Below, one piece after another: positions 11,062-59,903 of a stretch of DNA of 64,000 bases. The stretch is taken from assembly GCF_900696045.1 (NCBI RefSeq), contig NZ_LR216287.1, forward strand, positions 2,337,854-2,401,853. The letters run 5' to 3'. Under the pieces are notes generated by a model that was not told the origin of the DNA, did no database searches, and saw only the letters and a list, made by a program, of their open reading frames with translations. The translations under genes were made by a program, and so were the position numbers. Source of the stretch: Candidatus Nitrosocosmicus franklandus (lineage in GTDB: Archaea; Thermoproteota; Nitrososphaeria; Nitrososphaerales; Nitrososphaeraceae). How positions within the stretch are numbered: the stretch's first letter is position 1; each line of letters starts with the position of its first letter.

Positions 11062-12576
11062 ATGATAAAGATTTTAACATTAAATGTGCTATTAGTATTA
11101 TTAGTATTTGTAATTACCGGACCCACGGTTCAGGGTGTAATTTACCAACCTGTTGCTGCTCAGATGAATGGAGAGATGAATTTGAATATGAAAGGTCTAT
11201 TTGGAAGTATTCAAAACATTCTGACAAATCCATTCGATAGTTTAAATGATCGAGGAGATTCATCAGCTATAACACAAGATAATTCATCACAATCAGATGG
11301 ATACCAAAATAGCGATACTAAATCAGATGCTGCTACTCTTTACAGTCAAATACAAAGTAGCTTGACCGATCCTTTGGGACAAGTCGATATAACGTTTCCC
11401 CCTAAGGCTACCGATCCTCTTGTACCACTTGACCAACCCAGCTCAACCACTTCTATGGAACCAGTAAACCAACCCAGCTCAACCACTTCTATGGAACCAG
11501 TAAACCAACCCAGCTCAACCACTTCTATGGAACCAGTAAACCAACCCAGCTCAACCACTTCTATGGAACCAGTAAACCAACCCAGCTCAACCACTTCTAT
11601 GGAACCAGTAAACCAACCCAGCTCAACCACTTCTATGGAACCAGTAAACCAACCCAACTCAACCACTTCTATGGAACCAGTAAACCAACCCAGCTCAACC
11701 ACTTCTATGGAACCAGTAAACCAACCCTGCTCAACCACTTCTATGGAACCAGTAAACCAACCCAGCTCAACCACTTCTATGGAACCAGTAAACCAACCCA
11801 GCTCAACCACTTCTATGGAACCAGTAAACCAACCCAGCTCAACCACTTCTATGGAACCAGTAAACCAACCCAGCTCAACCACTTCTATGGAACCAGTAAA
11901 CCAACCCAGCTCAACCGACAAGCCTACAACTGCAGATAGCGAAAGTGTAGATTCTATCTCTCCCCCGACTGACAAGCCCGCATCCTCTGACGACACTACA
12001 TCCTCTGACGACACTACATCCTCTGACGACACTACATCCTCTGACGACACTACATCCTCTGACGACACTACATCCTCTGACGACACTACATCCTCTGACG
12101 ACACTACATCCTCTGACGACACTACATCCTCTGACGACACTACATCCTCTGACGACACTACATCCTCTGACGACACTACATCCTCTGACGACACTACATC
12201 CTCTGACGACACTACATCCTCTGACGACACTACATCCTCTGACGACACTACATCCTCTGACGACACTACATCCTCTGACGACACTACATCCTCTGACGAC
12301 ACTACATCCTCTGACGACACTACATCCTCTGACGACACTACATCCTCTGACGACACTACATCCTCTGACGACACTACATCCTCTGACGACACTACATCCT
12401 CTGACGACACTACATCCTCTGACGACACTACAACTGCAGATAGCGAAAGTATAGAGTCTATTGCTCCTCAAGTCAACAAACCTAAAACTGTTCACAATCC
12501 AACGAGTTCATCTAAAAATCCAGATGTTACTAAGATAATATCCCCAAACAATACCAATCCTGGCGCTAGTGGATAA
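11062..12576 (+). CDS. Secreted low-complexity protein with two tandem repeat arrays
   Basis: 504 residues. A signal peptide (MIKILTLNVLLVLLVFVITG, cleavage probably near VAAQM at residue 34) leads to a 90-residue Asn/Ser/Asp-rich part, then 13 full copies of a 12-residue unit (QPSSTTSMEPVN) and, after a short linker, 25 copies of SSDDTT. The mature protein should be a long, disordered, acidic and Ser/Thr-rich, probably O-glycosylated surface stalk (inference). The linker TTADSESVDSI before the second array returns as TTADSESIESI after it. There is no C-terminal anchor, so it is released or bound by other means. Frame chosen because it has the signal peptide and ends with a unique tail; long reverse-strand frames over the arrays are repeat artefacts. 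Confidence 0.8.
   Translation: MIKILTLNVLLVLLVFVITGPTVQGVIYQPVAAQMNGEMNLNMKGLFGSIQNILTNPFDSLNDRGDSSAITQDNSSQSDGYQNSDTKSDAATLYSQIQSSLTDPLGQVDITFPPKATDPLVPLDQPSSTTSMEPVNQPSSTTSMEPVNQPSSTTSMEPVNQPSSTTSMEPVNQPSSTTSMEPVNQPSSTTSMEPVNQPNSTTSMEPVNQPSSTTSMEPVNQPCSTTSMEPVNQPSSTTSMEPVNQPSSTTSMEPVNQPSSTTSMEPVNQPSSTTSMEPVNQPSSTDKPTTADSESVDSISPPTDKPASSDDTTSSDDTTSSDDTTSSDDTTSSDDTTSSDDTTSSDDTTSSDDTTSSDDTTSSDDTTSSDDTTSSDDTTSSDDTTSSDDTTSSDDTTSSDDTTSSDDTTSSDDTTSSDDTTSSDDTTSSDDTTSSDDTTSSDDTTSSDDTTSSDDTTTADSESIESIAPQVNKPKTVHNPTSSSKNPDVTKIISPNNTNPGASG
11437..11904 (+). repeat. Tandem array, 36 bp x 13, plus a partial copy
   Basis: Thirteen consecutive 36-bp units starting CCCAGCTC, each coding 12 residues, followed by 12 bp of a fourteenth. 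Only two substitutions are seen: unit 7 (CCCAACTC, Ser to Asn) and unit 9 (CCCTGCTC, Ser to Cys). Near-identity means recent expansion or homogenisation. Confidence 0.95.
11983..12432 (+). repeat. Perfect tandem array, 18 bp x 25
   Basis: Twenty-five copies of TCCTCTGACGACACTACA without a visible mismatch, each coding SSDDTT. The array is bounded on both sides by ACTGCAGATAGCGAAAGT (from 11929 and from 12433), as if it expanded inside a duplicated linker. Copy number is likely to vary between strains. Confidence 0.95.
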
Positions 12577-24128: not shown

Positions 24129-24965
24129 CTATTTGATTCTAAGAACAGACTTTATCTTATCAATTTGCTCTTGTCTCAAATATTTTCTGATATCTTCTGG
24201 ATACATACTGTCATAACCTGTTTCTTTTGGTTTGTAGCTAATATAATGATAAATCATATACAACGCACCCATTCTTCCAATAGGTTTGCCTGTGATAAAA
24301 TATTTTAAAAATCTTCCAAACGCAAAAAGTGGATGATATCCAAGTGTTCTCATACTTGCCCCAAATTCATAAAAGTGATGATTTTGACCCAATGGGCGTG
24401 TATGTTCAAATCTAGCTCCTCTAAGAATCATATACCTCATCTTTGCTTTCAATGCGGTAATCAATACGACTGATTCATAACCCATTTTTTCTGGATAAAG
24501 ATAATGAGCATTGTTAAAAAAGGAGTTTCGTACAAACCTGCCTGCACCATGAGGTTTTTCGTACCTGTTCTCATCGTATCTGCCAGATACTATTGCTAGA
24601 TCTTGGTTATTGTCCATCAACGAAATAATCTTTTCTGCATAATCTTGCTCATAGATAGTGTCATCTGTTCCTATCATATGATAGTCGGTAGGTTTCAAGT
24701 TATGTTCTCTTGAAAATTGTATTGCCTTATTCCAATTCTTAACAATTCTGGTTACATCGTATCCCATATCGGGGTTGGTTATGACAAATAGATTTTGCAT
24801 TTCTCCGCTCATTCTTTTTAGTATCTCTGGGGTCCTATCAGTGGAACCATCGTCAATAGTTATGATATATTCGGGTTTAATCGTTTGATTATGTAGTGAA
24901 AGGATTGCTTTCTCAATTGTGTCTTCTGAATTCCTACACGTAACAATCACATAATAATTCCCCAT
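24129..24965 (-). CDS. Family 2 glycosyltransferase
   Basis: 278 residues, GT-A fold. YYVIVTCRNSEDTIEKAILS opens the nucleotide-binding part, IDDGSTDRTPEI is the classic GT2 acidic motif, and IGTDDTIYEQDY supplies a second DD in place of DxD. The C-terminal third (RPLGQNHHFYEFGASMRTLG) could carry acceptor specificity. Probably adds a sugar to a surface glycan. First of three minus-strand glycosyltransferase genes in a row. Confidence 0.88.
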   Translation of the reverse strand: MGNYYVIVTCRNSEDTIEKAILSLHNQTIKPEYIITIDDGSTDRTPEILKRMSGEMQNLFVITNPDMGYDVTRIVKNWNKAIQFSREHNLKPTDYHMIGTDDTIYEQDYAEKIISLMDNNQDLAIVSGRYDENRYEKPHGAGRFVRNSFFNNAHYLYPEKMGYESVVLITALKAKMRYMILRGARFEHTRPLGQNHHFYEFGASMRTLGYHPLFAFGRFLKYFITGKPIGRMGALYMIYHYISYKPKETGYDSMYPEDIRKYLRQEQIDKIKSVLRIK

Positions 24966-25086: not shown

Positions 25087-26235
25087 TCATGCCTGTTTGT
25101 ATGCTTCAAATATGTTATCCTCATAATTTTCCCACAACAAATTACTGCGTGCAAATTCGTAGGTTTTGAGGCGTTTGGAGTACAAATCTTCCATATCGTC
25201 AAACAGAAATTTTAGTTTCTTTTGTAAATCCTTATAGTCCTCAAAAGAAAGACAATGATCCATCAAGGTATCAAACACGGGAACAAAACCAGAAGAAGAC
25301 AATACAAATAAACCTGCATGAGCGTATTCATAAGCCTTATTGGGGCTGATAAAAATATGAGACCAATGAGCTCTAAAAGGTATAATTCCTATTGAATGGT
25401 TTTGCATCTGTCTGTACATTTCCTTTCTACCCAAAAATCCCAAAAATTCTGTGGTAGGTGTTGATTCGCTCTTCCATCCTATTATGTACAATTTTCCAAT
25501 ATCGTTGATCAGATCATTATTAAACAAATCTATGAATCCGTCAATATTTCTATGAATTGATTTAAGTGCTCCAGTTGGTTCTACCCCTGCATAAACTGAA
25601 GATTTGTGTTGATGAAAAACTGGTCTTGGAATCCAATCAATTTCACTCTTCAATGGAAAGTTTGGAACAAGATATACCTTCTTTCCCACTTTCTCTAAGT
25701 CTTTAACTATTGTGCTTGATACTGTAATTGTTGGTGTAGAAGAAACTAGTTCTTTCTCCAGACTTGACCATACTTTTACATATCTGGATTTCAGAAAGTT
25801 CCTAAGGTGTCTTTCGAAGACCTTATGGAGTCTTTCGGACTTGCCCGATTTGATTGTATTTGTACTTGCATCTGATTCAAGTTGTCTCATTAAGTAAATC
25901 GACCAATATTCATGGTTATCGTAAACAACGGGGTAAGCGTTAATCTCTTTGGCCATTTTTGCCGAAAACACATTGTGAGCGTGAATAATATCTGGTCTTA
26001 CTTCCGCAAGGACTTTATTCATCTGCTTCTTTAATTTAGACCAATACACAGGAAACCTGTTTCTGGACCGCGAATTCCATGGAATTACAAAGTTCTTTTC
26101 AAAAATTGATTCATAATTTTGGGATGTTTTTCTACCTGCAAAATACACTTTATGTCCCCTATTCTTGGAGCTTATAGCAGCTTTTTCAATTCTCCAGTCT
26201 GGAAGCGAGCTATCGGAAAGGTGTAGTATCCGCAT
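25087..26235 (-). CDS. Glycosyltransferase, GT4-like (copy A of an inverted pair)
   Basis: 382 residues, GT-B fold. The N-terminal domain starts MRILHLSDSSLPDWRIEKAA and contains PDIIHAHNVFSAKMAKEI; the C-terminal donor domain has SPNKAYEYAHAGLFVLSS, the usual E-x7-E-like region. It is a close paralogue of the gene at 27301-28446 on the opposite strand: three blocks are identical at the DNA level while the parts between differ strongly (for example residues about 130-200 and 230-290). That pattern suggests domain shuffling or gene conversion, with changed acceptor or donor use. Confidence 0.85.
   Translation of the reverse strand: MRILHLSDSSLPDWRIEKAAISSKNRGHKVYFAGRKTSQNYESIFEKNFVIPWNSRSRNRFPVYWSKLKKQMNKVLAEVRPDIIHAHNVFSAKMAKEINAYPVVYDNHEYWSIYLMRQLESDASTNTIKSGKSERLHKVFERHLRNFLKSRYVKVWSSLEKELVSSTPTITVSSTIVKDLEKVGKKVYLVPNFPLKSEIDWIPRPVFHQHKSSVYAGVEPTGALKSIHRNIDGFIDLFNNDLINDIGKLYIIGWKSESTPTTEFLGFLGRKEMYRQMQNHSIGIIPFRAHWSHIFISPNKAYEYAHAGLFVLSSSGFVPVFDTLMDHCLSFEDYKDLQKKLKFLFDDMEDLYSKRLKTYEFARSNLLWENYEDNIFEAYKQA
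25098..26208. repeat. Left arm of a patchy inverted repeat
   Basis: Three blocks in this arm are perfect inverse matches to the right arm: 25098-25176 (79 bp) with 28357-28435; 25901-26028 (128 bp) with 27517-27644; 26135-26208 (74 bp) with 27334-27407. DNA between blocks is diverged. I compared the blocks base by base by eye. Confidence 0.9.
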
Positions 26236-26290
26236 CTCTATCTAATTACCATTAAAACATTGCAAAGTATATCTACCTACTATCCTAAAT

Positions 26291-27184
26291 TTAGGAGATG
26301 CTTTCATAGATTTGCAATACCTTTTTTGTTACATTTGTCGGTTCGTTTGCGGCCGGCAAACTGTTCCAAGATCTGAATGCATAGTCAATGACTCTTAGTC
26401 CACAAGCCAAAGCTTCAAGGGCTGTTTTGCTAAAGTTATTTAATAAATTATCATTTACATATCTTATGTCTACATAAGTATCGAACTTTTTGAGGAATTC
26501 AGGCATCTTTTCATAACTTATTGGATACTTGGTACGATCGATAATCTGCAGGTTGTCTAAGCCGTGATTCTTACAATAGTTTATTATCCAACTAGAGTTC
26601 GATGTCGCTTCTGTGCTGAATGTAAAAGCATTATTTCTGGAACTGTTTTCTTTTGCACCCGATTGGAAAAAATGATCAGTATCTACTGGATTAGGAAGGA
26701 TGATTGGAGTTGCCTTTTTTATCTTATCACGCAAGTCAGGGGTAGAAAGGAATATCTTATCCGCATATTCTTCTGCTAACAAATTGTTTCTTTCCCTTAT
26801 TCGATTCGAATTATAGTTTTTAAATAACAGTTTTGGAATGGAAGTGATTTTCTGATTTGAATAATTTTGTTTAATTCCTCTCAGATCTGATCCATGAAAA
26901 TGCATTATGATTTTTATTCTGTTTTCTAATTTTTTTTTTAGATACAACAATACTTCTGTGCGACTATGGATGTGCAAAACGTCCGCCTGATTTGCTTGCT
27001 TTAGACAGAATTCAAGAAAACTATTTTCATCAATAAATTCGACAAGATCTTTATAAAAGTCGTAAATACCATAAGGATCATAATTAACTCTTCGTATGAC
27101 TTTAGCATTGTGACCCATGTTGTTTTGATATTTAGCTAAAATACACGCCACACCAGACTGATCCCAGACATGAATGATGTTCAA
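26291..27184 (-). CDS. Glycosyltransferase, GT-B fold, between the inverted pair
   Basis: 297 residues, short for a two-domain GT-B enzyme. The N-terminal domain (MNIIHVWDQSGVACILAKY, then DVLHIHSRTEVLLYLKK) and the C-terminal end (FSKTALEALACGLRVIDY) match GT4-like enzymes; the glutamate of TALEALACG is the donor-binding acid. The middle is unusually compact. It lies between two inverted copies of another glycosyltransferase gene, so an inversion between these would flip this gene and its promoter. Confidence 0.75.
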   Translation of the reverse strand: MNIIHVWDQSGVACILAKYQNNMGHNAKVIRRVNYDPYGIYDFYKDLVEFIDENSFLEFCLKQANQADVLHIHSRTEVLLYLKKKLENRIKIIMHFHGSDLRGIKQNYSNQKITSIPKLLFKNYNSNRIRERNNLLAEEYADKIFLSTPDLRDKIKKATPIILPNPVDTDHFFQSGAKENSSRNNAFTFSTEATSNSSWIINYCKNHGLDNLQIIDRTKYPISYEKMPEFLKKFDTYVDIRYVNDNLLNNFSKTALEALACGLRVIDYAFRSWNSLPAANEPTNVTKKVLQIYESIS

Positions 27185-27267
27185 CTAAGATTAATTTAAC
27201 ATTGTATATACTCTTATGAATATTTATGGATAAAATGAAGCAAAACTCGAAAAATGAATCATTAACA

Positions 27268-27276
27268 CTTATAAAT
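27268..27276 (+). promoter_or_regulatory. TATA-like element for glycosyltransferase copy B
   Basis: CTTATAAAT centred about 29 nt before the TTG at 27301; supports a leaderless TTG start. Confidence 0.5.
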
Positions 27277-27300
27277 TTCTCGGATTGACCGATCTGTTAT

Positions 27301-28446
27301 TTGGTTCTTAAGATATTACATTTGTCAGATGGTTCGCTTCCAGACTGGAGAATTGAAAAAGCTGCTATAAGCTCCAAGAATAGGGGACATAAAGTGTATT
27401 TTGCAGGATCAACACCTGAGCCAAGTTATACAAGAGATGTTTTTTCTCAAATCTACAATCTAAAATGGAATCCAAAAGCTCGGTACAAACTGCCTTATCA
27501 ATGGCACATTCTCAAAAAGCAGATGAATAAAGTCCTTGCGGAAGTAAGACCAGATATTATTCACGCTCACAATGTGTTTTCGGCAAAAATGGCCAAAGAG
27601 ATTAACGCTTACCCCGTTGTTTACGATAACCATGAATATTGGTCAAAATTTTTGATTTATCAGTATGAAAGTAGCACTGGTCTCGGTTACGATCATACTG
27701 ACGGCATAGACCAGATAAAACGTAACATCACAACACTTGGTAATCAAATCAAGAAAAATTTGCGTAAAATGTGGATTGAATGGGAACAAGAAATAATAAC
27801 CCGTTATCCATCTTTGGTACCCTCCGTGTCAATAAAGTCGGATTTATCTAAAATTTCAAACAAAGTATTTTTGCTACCTAATTTTCCATTGAAGAGCGAA
27901 ATTGAAAGAATCGAACCTCCAAAAAGACACGATCATTTCTCATCGGTGTATGCAGGAACATCTCCATTCAAAGGCTATCAAACGCCAATAAAAAACATCG
28001 ATGGATTCATAGATTTGTTTGATAAGGGTTCATTGGGTAAATTAAGTGTGATCGGCTGGACGTGTTCAGATTCAGAATTTATAAAATATCATGGTTTTAT
28101 GGACAGAAAAGATATGTTTAACGAAATGGAAAAAAACAGCGCCGGATTCATACCATGGAAGAAACATCCTTTTCATCGTTTCTGTAGTCCAAATAAGGCA
28201 TTTGAATACGCTCATGCAGGTCTAATTGTGTTGAGTACAAACTCTTTGCAACCCATTTTTGATTCCTTACAGGATAATGTGGTGGGTTTTGATGACTATG
28301 TTGATATGGTAGATAAAGTAAAGAATCTACTTTCTGATTTGGAACAAGTATTTGTAAAACGCCTCAAAACCTACGAATTTGCACGCAGTAATTTGTTGTG
28401 GGAAAATTATGAGGATAACATATTTGAAGCATACAGACTAGCTTAA
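27301..28446 (+). CDS. Glycosyltransferase, GT4-like (copy B of an inverted pair)
   Basis: 381 residues. Starts MVLKILHLSDGSLPDWRIEK and shares PDIIHAHNVFSAKMAKEI and the tail KTYEFARSNLLWENYEDN with copy A at 25087-26235, some of it identical to the base. Unlike copy A, residues about 125-165 (STGLGYDHTDGIDQIKRN) and the donor-side loop differ, so the two probably have different specificities. TTG start, chosen by alignment with copy A and by the TATA box. Upstream of a methyltransferase on the same strand. Confidence 0.85.
   Translation: MVLKILHLSDGSLPDWRIEKAAISSKNRGHKVYFAGSTPEPSYTRDVFSQIYNLKWNPKARYKLPYQWHILKKQMNKVLAEVRPDIIHAHNVFSAKMAKEINAYPVVYDNHEYWSKFLIYQYESSTGLGYDHTDGIDQIKRNITTLGNQIKKNLRKMWIEWEQEIITRYPSLVPSVSIKSDLSKISNKVFLLPNFPLKSEIERIEPPKRHDHFSSVYAGTSPFKGYQTPIKNIDGFIDLFDKGSLGKLSVIGWTCSDSEFIKYHGFMDRKDMFNEMEKNSAGFIPWKKHPFHRFCSPNKAFEYAHAGLIVLSTNSLQPIFDSLQDNVVGFDDYVDMVDKVKNLLSDLEQVFVKRLKTYEFARSNLLWENYEDNIFEAYRLA
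27334..28435. repeat. Right arm of a patchy inverted repeat
   Basis: Counterpart of the arm at 25098-26208; perfect blocks at 27334-27407, 27517-27644 and 28357-28435. Confidence 0.9.
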
Positions 28447-28589: not shown

Positions 28590-29402
28590 ATGAATTATAA
28601 TAGTTCTAATGAAAATAGTAACAATGATATTAAAAAATATTGGGAAAAACGTCTCAACGATAACTATGGATTGCACGGTACTGGATACATTGGATTAGGT
28701 AAAAACTATAATATTTGGATGTATAAAGTTAGGAAACATATAGTAAATAAAAAATTACAAAAATTTCAGTCAAATTTTAGTAGTGCAAATGTGCTTGATA
28801 TTGGATCAGGTAGTGGTTTTTATGTTGACATATGGAAACACTTGGGTGTAAAGAACATCACGGGGTGTGATATTACTAGTGTATCTGTTAAAAATCTCTC
28901 AAACAAATATCCGGAAGGCGAGTTTTTGGAATTTGATATCAGTTCTAATGTAATCCCAATATCGAAGCAGTTTGACTATGTTACTGCCTTTGATGTCTTG
29001 TTTCATATTGTTGATGATGAAAAATATGCAAAGGCTATAAGCAATATCTATAATCTATTAAAACCAAATGGTATACTTTTCTTTTCTGAGAATTTTATCC
29101 ATAAAAAAACAGCAAGAAGTAGGTTCCAATCTACTCGTTCGCTTGACGAAATTCAGTCATTGCTTCAAAGATCTGGGTTTCAGATATTGGAAAGATCTCC
29201 TATGTTTTATTTGATGAATACTCCTGTGGATTCCGACGGCGTAATTATTAACAAGTTTTGGCATCTGGTTAAGAAAGTAGCAAGTAAAGGTGAAACCTTT
29301 GGACGGTTGGTTGGAGGTATTCTTTATCCGTTCGAATTGATGATGATTTCTACTAAATCAGAAAGTCCTTCTACAGAGATAATGATTTGTAAAAAACAAT
29401 AA
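28590..29402 (+). CDS. Class I SAM-dependent methyltransferase
   Basis: 270 residues. Motif I is VLDIGSGSGFYVDIW, followed by GCDITSVSV, the acidic EFDIS and FDYVTAFDVLFHI as motif IV. An N-terminal segment (KYWEKRLNDNYGLHGTGYIG) is typical of methyltransferases found in polysaccharide clusters, which methylate sugars. C-terminal 90 residues are family-specific. It follows glycosyltransferase copy B by 140 bp, so a role in surface glycan decoration is likely (inference). Confidence 0.82.
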   Translation: MNYNSSNENSNNDIKKYWEKRLNDNYGLHGTGYIGLGKNYNIWMYKVRKHIVNKKLQKFQSNFSSANVLDIGSGSGFYVDIWKHLGVKNITGCDITSVSVKNLSNKYPEGEFLEFDISSNVIPISKQFDYVTAFDVLFHIVDDEKYAKAISNIYNLLKPNGILFFSENFIHKKTARSRFQSTRSLDEIQSLLQRSGFQILERSPMFYLMNTPVDSDGVIINKFWHLVKKVASKGETFGRLVGGILYPFELMMISTKSESPSTEIMICKKQ

Positions 29403-33180: not shown

Positions 33181-33939
33181 ATGAGCACCGCCATTTCTTT
33201 AGGTAGTTTAAGTTATGTTTTAATCACATTTATCATCTTATTCGGCATTGCTCCAGCGAGCTTGTACAATGCATTGAACACTGATGGATCGACCCTTGTT
33301 GTTGCAGTTTTTGGGCAGGAATCAAATTCTACTGTTGCAAGTGATGCTGAAATTTTAGCTAGTATAAATCAAACTTATTTGTCTTTAATCCCTTTAATGA
33401 TCAAAGAAGTTGAAAATACTAATGCAAGTGAAATCCCTATTAGACAAATAATGGAAGCAACTCCTTCAAATGTCACCGCCCTCCAGGATATAGTCAAAAA
33501 CAGTTCAAATAGAACAACTCAAGATGAACTAAACTCTAGTTTTACTGATGTCTCTTCTTCCAATGGTGGCATTAATAGCAACAACACGCTCAAGCCTCAG
33601 GATCTGATACCAGTAGTGGTTAACATGACTCAAAACACCAACGCAACTGATATACCTATTCAAAATGTCATAAACGCTGTTCCTTCAAATGTCACCGCCC
33701 TCCAGGATATAGTCAAAAACAGTTCAAATAGAACATCTCAAGATGAATTTAACTCTAGTTTTACTGATGTCTCTTCTTCCAATGGTAGCGTTAATAGCAA
33801 CAACACGCTCAAGCCTCAGGATCTGATACCAGTAGTGGTTAACATGACTCAAAACACCAACGCAAGCGAGCTTGGGTTTATGAGAGTGATTAACTCTACT
33901 CCAAATCTGGATACCCTAAATAAGAGTATTTTGAATTAG
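33181..33939 (+). CDS. Secreted protein with duplicated 73-residue unit
   Basis: 252 residues. N-terminal signal segment (LSYVLITFIILFGIAPASLY), then an Asn/Ser-rich body with many N-glycosylation sequons. A 73-residue unit is repeated: PSNVTALQDIVKNSSNRT begins at base 33463 and again at 33682, 219 bp later, and the DNA of the two copies is nearly identical; a third partial copy (NMTQNTNASELGFMRVI) closes the protein. No known domain. Similar in build, not in sequence, to the secreted repeat proteins at 11062 and 59460. Confidence 0.7.
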   Translation: MSTAISLGSLSYVLITFIILFGIAPASLYNALNTDGSTLVVAVFGQESNSTVASDAEILASINQTYLSLIPLMIKEVENTNASEIPIRQIMEATPSNVTALQDIVKNSSNRTTQDELNSSFTDVSSSNGGINSNNTLKPQDLIPVVVNMTQNTNATDIPIQNVINAVPSNVTALQDIVKNSSNRTSQDEFNSSFTDVSSSNGSVNSNNTLKPQDLIPVVVNMTQNTNASELGFMRVINSTPNLDTLNKSILN

Positions 33940-59459: not shown

Positions 59460-59903
59460 ATGAATTTTAATAAGTATGCAGCAGGAATATTCGTTTTTGC
59501 AGGGATCCTAACTTTGTTTTTGGCAAATGGCGGGATTTCCACTACTCAATATGCAAATGCTCAATCTACGGGTGAGCAAATTGGTGATACAATTGGCGGA
59601 GCATTAGATGAGTTGGGTGAGGGATTCGGCAATGCAACAGAAACAATAAGTGAAGCTGGTAGCAACGCAACAGAGGGAGTAAGCGATGCCGTAAATGAAA
59701 CTGGTCAAGCCGCAGATAACGCAACTACCATTGACGAGAGTGCAAGCCAAGCAGCTAGTGAAACTGGTCAAGCCGCAGATAACGCAACTACCATTGACGA
59801 GAGTGCAAGCCAAGCTGTAGATAACGCAACATCAGCTGAAGGAAATACCACCAATTCAACATCAGATAACCCTCTAGATATGTTGATGAATTTGTTTAAG
59901 TAA
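59460..59903 (+). CDS. Secreted repeat protein, 147 aa
   Basis: Signal peptide (MNFNKYAAGIFVFAGILTLF.., likely cleavage near YANAQS at residue 36) and a low-complexity Ala/Thr/Asn/Glu-rich body. A 21-residue unit (ETGQAADNATTIDESASQA) is repeated twice, 63 bp apart, with identical DNA over most of its length. Weak 11-residue periodicity (ATETISEAGSNATEGVSDA) suggests an amphipathic helical rod, as in LEA-like proteins. Function unknown. Confidence 0.7.
   Translation: MNFNKYAAGIFVFAGILTLFLANGGISTTQYANAQSTGEQIGDTIGGALDELGEGFGNATETISEAGSNATEGVSDAVNETGQAADNATTIDESASQAASETGQAADNATTIDESASQAVDNATSAEGNTTNSTSDNPLDMLMNLFK

Follow-up and report, generated by a model that had tools for sequence, protein, structure and literature searches.

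The window analysed here is a 64,000-nucleotide stretch of the Candidatus Nitrosocosmicus franklandus genome (G000; one contig, 2.84 Mb), in which two paralogous glycosyltransferase genes lie head-to-head around a third. Gene A (25087–26235, minus strand) encodes 382 amino acids, its paralogue B (27301–28446, plus strand) begins at a conserved TTG at 27301, and the middle gene, mid (26291–27184, minus strand), is carried on A's strand. Mid and B are separated by a divergent promoter spacer (27185–27300) with a TATA-like element, CTTATAAA, at 27268–27275, 33 nt upstream of B's TTG; the start is kept in relatives, where the TATA lies 32–33 nt before it. On the left stands a GT2-family glycosyltransferase gene (24129–24965, minus strand; PF00535, 3.4e-16) and on the right a methyltransferase gene, MT1 (28590–29402, plus strand; PF08241, 1.1e-14), both recognised by synteny. 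Neighbouring genes also include one for a probable 512-aa membrane protein that has no family match and is GT39-like by appearance only. Tandem repeats occur elsewhere in the window: two adjacent near-perfect arrays at 11432–11916 (36 bp x 13.5, 99%) and 11981–12432 (18 bp x 25, 100%), which lie where GC is elevated and GC skew is strong and perhaps encode a repetitive surface protein; a 219-bp repeat (33462–33865, 97% identical) within an ORF (33181–33939) adjoining a NosD-like surface protein gene; and a 63-bp unit present 1.9 times at 59696–59815 (100% identity).

By sequence family, A and B are GT4-type (GT-B) glycosyltransferases, A also by its predicted fold. The GT4 N-domain family PF13439 scores 38.3 bits in A (1.8e-9) and 29.6 bits in B (8.5e-7), above the curated cut-off of 28.5; mid, with 25.5 bits, falls under it and has orthologues in two relatives, G001 and G003 (58–61%). 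The AlphaFold model of A (pLDDT 89.5) has a confident two-Rossmann GT-B fold, and a Foldseek search with this model returned the GT4 enzymes PglA, WbnH, MshA and BshA as top matches, all at E-values of 1e-10 or better (2.5e-13 for PglA, 8dqd). A sequence search of solved structures gave no match.

Three blocks are identical to the base between A (minus strand) and B (plus strand) in inverse orientation: b1, of 74 bp (26135–26208 in A, 27334–27407 in B), b2, of 128 bp (25901–26028 and 27517–27644), and b3, of 79 bp (25098–25176 and 28357–28435). The next-longest exact inverted run is 19 bp. Beyond the blocks, A and B share about 50% protein identity and their synonymous sites are saturated. Two type-specific stretches carry this divergence: variable segment I, between b1 and b2 (26029–26134 in A, 27408–27516 in B; pS 0.80, pN 0.54), and variable segment II, between b2 and b3 (25177–25900 in A, 27645–28356 in B; pS 0.63–0.69, pN 0.37–0.61). 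Among codons that specify the same amino acid in both genes, 87/89 are identical within the blocks and 57/108 elsewhere (Fisher 2e-14), and the longest run was matched in 1 of 20,000 shuffles, which places the pattern far beyond chance. A DNA search of the genome with A recovered A and B alone, with no other copy or donor. The first-pass annotation had reported both the perfect blocks and the strong protein divergence between them, on which the exact-run search and gene coordinates agree with it, and had proposed that synonymous divergence along the pair be plotted; the profile is far from uniform, at about 0–0.06 pS in the blocks and 0.6–0.8 outside. Its estimate of 1.1–1.3 kb for the invertible span fits the 74-bp pair (1125 bp apart) and is too small for the 128-bp (1488 bp) and 79-bp (3180 bp) pairs.

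Mapped onto the predicted structure of A, b1 corresponds to helix 1 plus the second strand, b2 to a strand-helix-strand unit (residues ~70–112) and b3 to the last two helices. Segment II holds the remainder of the N-terminal domain and the whole C-terminal domain. In GT-B enzymes the C-terminal domain is the donor side. Because segment II contains all of it, the donors of the two enzymes probably differ.

Comparison with relatives, one genome per species, points to a recurrent process. Orthologues of A and B occur in G003 and G001 in the same head-to-head layout, in G014 on two broken contigs, and in G002 head-to-head without mid between them. Exact within-genome runs occupy the same positions in three of these (143 and 59 bp in G003, 143 and 68 bp in G001, 127 and 74 bp in G014). 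Between species, by contrast, the blocks are about as diverged as the remainder (mostly pS 0.6–0.9), b3 being somewhat less so between nearer species (0.39–0.59). Thus in four species the copies within a genome are closer to each other, along the converted tracts, than to their orthologues elsewhere. Same-amino-acid codons repeat the pattern, identical in 72/84 cases within blocks against 37/102 outside in G003, 66/78 against 56/110 in G001, and 61/63 against 41/83 in G014; in G002 (24/48 against 51/111) the blocks are not homogenised despite the head-to-head pair. In trees, b1 and b2 cluster by genome, with low support for some short blocks, whereas segments I and II cluster by gene (B clade UFBoot 98/99). 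Because the blocks are identical within genomes yet synonymously saturated between species, these alignments strongly support their independent re-homogenisation in at least four lineages by recurrent ectopic gene conversion. The annotation's suggestion of ongoing conversion thereby gains strong support, with independent repeats in at least four species.

Homogenisation differs among the blocks. The central block, b2, is homogenised in all four species (G000, G003, G001, G014), and its border lies at an identical Tyr-Trp-Ser in each, with A- or B-type residues starting there. Block b1 shows homogenisation in two of them, G000 and G001, and in part also in G003. Homogenisation of b3 is limited to G000 and G014 and has been lost in G003 and G001, both of which carry the inverted module described below. 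In G063, a genome of a more distant genus, two genes of this enzyme family likewise lie head-to-head, with a similar but different membrane protein gene between them; their b2 copies are ~97% identical (about three mismatches in 113 bp), and the contig (L090) ends inside the repeat. Head-to-head remnants in G043 lack the blocks, other paralogues (G003 C1:699973, G001 C28) stand apart in the segment trees and take no part, and no relative was found among viral contigs.

Several further features of the family were observed. Remnants with in-frame stops or truncations occur at L087 (G005 C338), L089 (G012 C228) and L088 (G001 C14), which suggests that members are often gained and lost. G002 (L073) has a further rearrangement with a breakpoint beside A: compared with the other species, the interval running from a PEP-mutase-like gene to mid is inverted. 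Gene A of G003 (L071:7700–8848) has no ATG, GTG or TTG at the conserved N-terminus and reads AAC-TGT-ATT-AAA after an upstream stop, so that it may begin at ATT or may have lost its start codon.

The orientation of the locus varies between species as well. Taking the GT2 and MT1 genes as fixed flanks, five species are informative, two of which (G014 and G006) bear on outer orientation only, mid being missing from their assemblies. The gene on the GT2 side is A in three of them (G000, G014, G006) and B in the other two (G003, G001), so the A-mid-B module is flipped in two of the five. In the flank-gene tree, ((((G003,G006),G000),G014),G001), G003 and G006 are sisters (support 96), yet their modules have opposite orientations. 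Given this tree and the position of B on the MT1 side in G002, the simplest history comprises two separate whole-module inversions, a count that rests on five genomes. Sequence at the 3' ends goes with location rather than gene, both in the non-coding flanks and, among nearer species, in the last four codons: AA[AG]CAGGC lies beside GT2, even where the adjacent gene is B (G003), and AG.C.AGCTTAA lies beside MT1 at B of G000 and at A of G003. Because flanks and last codons follow location, the whole-module breakpoints map, on these alignments, to b3.

A second, inner rearrangement is seen in one species. In G001, mid lies on B's strand rather than A's and is thus flipped relative to A and B, and its upstream spacer, with the TATA element and TTG start, precedes A instead of B as in G000 and G003. 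Judged from this arrangement, the flip of mid and spacer is a crossover in b1. The inversion foreseen by the first-pass annotation is thus supported on the evolutionary scale, in related species with module or mid reversed. No instance was seen of its further proposal, that the N- and C-terminal halves of the genes swap by way of b2: segments I and II are coupled in all four complete pairs (G000, G003, G001, G002), an outcome with a probability of about 1/8 by chance under free swapping, which makes this weak evidence from few genomes. Whichever the orientation, one of the two genes stands behind a TATA promoter of its own, and the second follows mid at a distance of ~46–55 bp and presumably shares an operon with it. 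Since each gene can plausibly be transcribed in both states, a simple on/off switch is unlikely, and the b1 flip would alter promoter context rather than turn a gene off.

We propose that the locus is shaped by homologous recombination between inverted paralogues, namely conversion with rare crossovers, confined to the stretches common to both enzymes, and we hold this explanation to be very probable. A and B would be head-to-head paralogues of GT4 type that are old and have diverged in function, and recombination between the inverted copies would homogenise three shareable stretches, two in the N-terminal domain (b1, b2) and one in the C-terminal helices (b3). Segments I and II would escape either because heterology halts the tracts or because selection purges converted genes. 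Most events would proceed without crossover and some with it. An occasional crossover through b3 would invert the A-mid-B module, A and B trading outer neighbours; one through b1 would invert mid with the divergent promoter, the other gene gaining the TATA/TTG promoter and its partner being read through mid. The genomes themselves record the homogenisation, independent in at least four lineages, and the fixed inversions with junctions at b3 and b1; RadA-type homologous-recombination machinery as the agent, selection as what keeps the segments distinct, and any effect on expression are our inferences. Two observations weigh against the proposal: b3 has ceased to be homogenised in precisely the two genomes with the flipped module (G003, G001), and G002 combines a head-to-head pair with unhomogenised blocks. 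No tyrosine recombinase (PF00589) is encoded in the window, and none is evident among flanking ORFs; this, together with block sequences that differ per species, weighs against a site-specific mechanism acting at a fixed site.

The main competitor, a surface-glycan switch of the kind that the first-pass annotation had also raised, is programmed phase variation, in which the blocks are kept for frequent within-clone inversion that alters surface glycans, much as in hsdS shuffling. Persistence of the blocks at the same places in several species, the variation of orientation between species and the transfer of a conserved promoter and start codon by b1 inversion would all suit a switch; two G014 contigs also end exactly in b2, which would fit mixed paths, and low coverage too. 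Against it, the nearest Phage_integrase matches lie hundreds of kb away, half-swapped genes are not seen through b2, the best-kept block, both genes have a plausible transcription route in each state, and the single-contig assemblies each give one orientation. We therefore regard a programmed switch as unlikely. An assembly artefact, with repeats collapsed or copied and orientation arbitrary, has in its favour that short-read assemblies may be broken or wrongly joined at repeats of 127–143 bp and that the G014 contigs end there. G000 and G003 are single contigs, however, G003 is inverted although its exact b3 repeat is at most 18 bp, and a misjoin at the 143-bp repeat of G001 would have uncoupled segments I and II, which remain coupled; assembly error was accordingly rejected as very improbable.

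Two further explanations do without recurrent recombination. Perfect identity in G000 would follow from a single recent partial duplication or import in this genome only, but the two copies of these blocks are also identical, independently and with a different sequence, in each of G003, G001 and G014, and on the evidence of these sister genomes we rejected such an event as extremely improbable. Selection on protein or nucleotide sequence, or on a common RNA or DNA signal, could draw on the conserved N-domain and C-terminal helix residues within the blocks. Yet the identity is confined to the within-genome pair, synonymous sites differ between species, and in A of G000 and G003 the blocks have 43/75 identical codons, similar to 91/170 outside; the between-species synonymous divergence contradicts selection alone, which we likewise rejected as extremely improbable.

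If recombination between the inverted paralogues is as we propose, conversion and inversion have worked on one inverted enzyme pair in at least four soil ammonia-oxidiser species, whose genomes preserve a naturally replicated record of both. The sharp boundary between what can be shared and what must stay distinct predicts the residues that set each enzyme's specificity. Members of Nitrosocosmicus are without a canonical S-layer, and a glycocalyx has been proposed (PMC11559005). A more far-reaching possibility, which we consider unlikely, is an archaeal invertible surface-glycan locus operating without a dedicated recombinase. In populations of ammonia-oxidising archaea, blocks of coding sequence kept identical by conversion would then serve as three nested recombination points, at which promoter context (b1), enzyme halves (b2) or outer neighbours (b3) are flipped. 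Our data make testable the idea that archaea without recombinase-driven switches vary surface glycans through homologous recombination.

Searches of the literature on Thaumarchaeota gene conversion, Nitrosocosmicus glycosyltransferases and archaeal invertible loci found no such locus by title or abstract start; related systems are known from other organisms. At phase-variable type I restriction hsdS loci, such as pneumococcal SpnIII (PMC6620402), inverted copies likewise have conserved blocks flanking variable specificity segments, and inversion goes through the conserved blocks, as here. At hsdS loci, recognition domains move at a high rate between copies that are active and copies that are silent, and nearly all such loci carry a recombinase (PMC6620402); at the archaeal locus, in contrast, the segments are coupled, a tyrosine recombinase is not near, and both copies look expressed, as far as their sequences indicate. 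Ectopic conversion of inverted pairs is described for divergent and convergent inverted repeats of C. elegans (PMC1803023) and for human Y palindromes, with rare inversions in P6 (PMC3723533). Conversion keeps inverted paralogues alike there as here, with the difference that homogenisation in the archaeal pair is patchy and limited to the common parts of two specialised enzymes.

The closest precedent is the flip/flop region of Saccharomyces chromosome XIV, with its YNL018C/YNL034W inverted repeats (PMC9731477). In both systems inverted paralogues are homogenised per species and orientation is re-created repeatedly among relatives; here, G003 and G001 differ from G000, G014 and G006 on two branches, which suggests that orientation changed more than once. 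In the yeast, whole 4-kb repeats are homogenised, 24 kb with 15 genes lies between them and both orientations occur within species (PMC9731477), whereas the archaeal locus, known from one genome per species, has three short coding blocks within diverged genes and one gene between.
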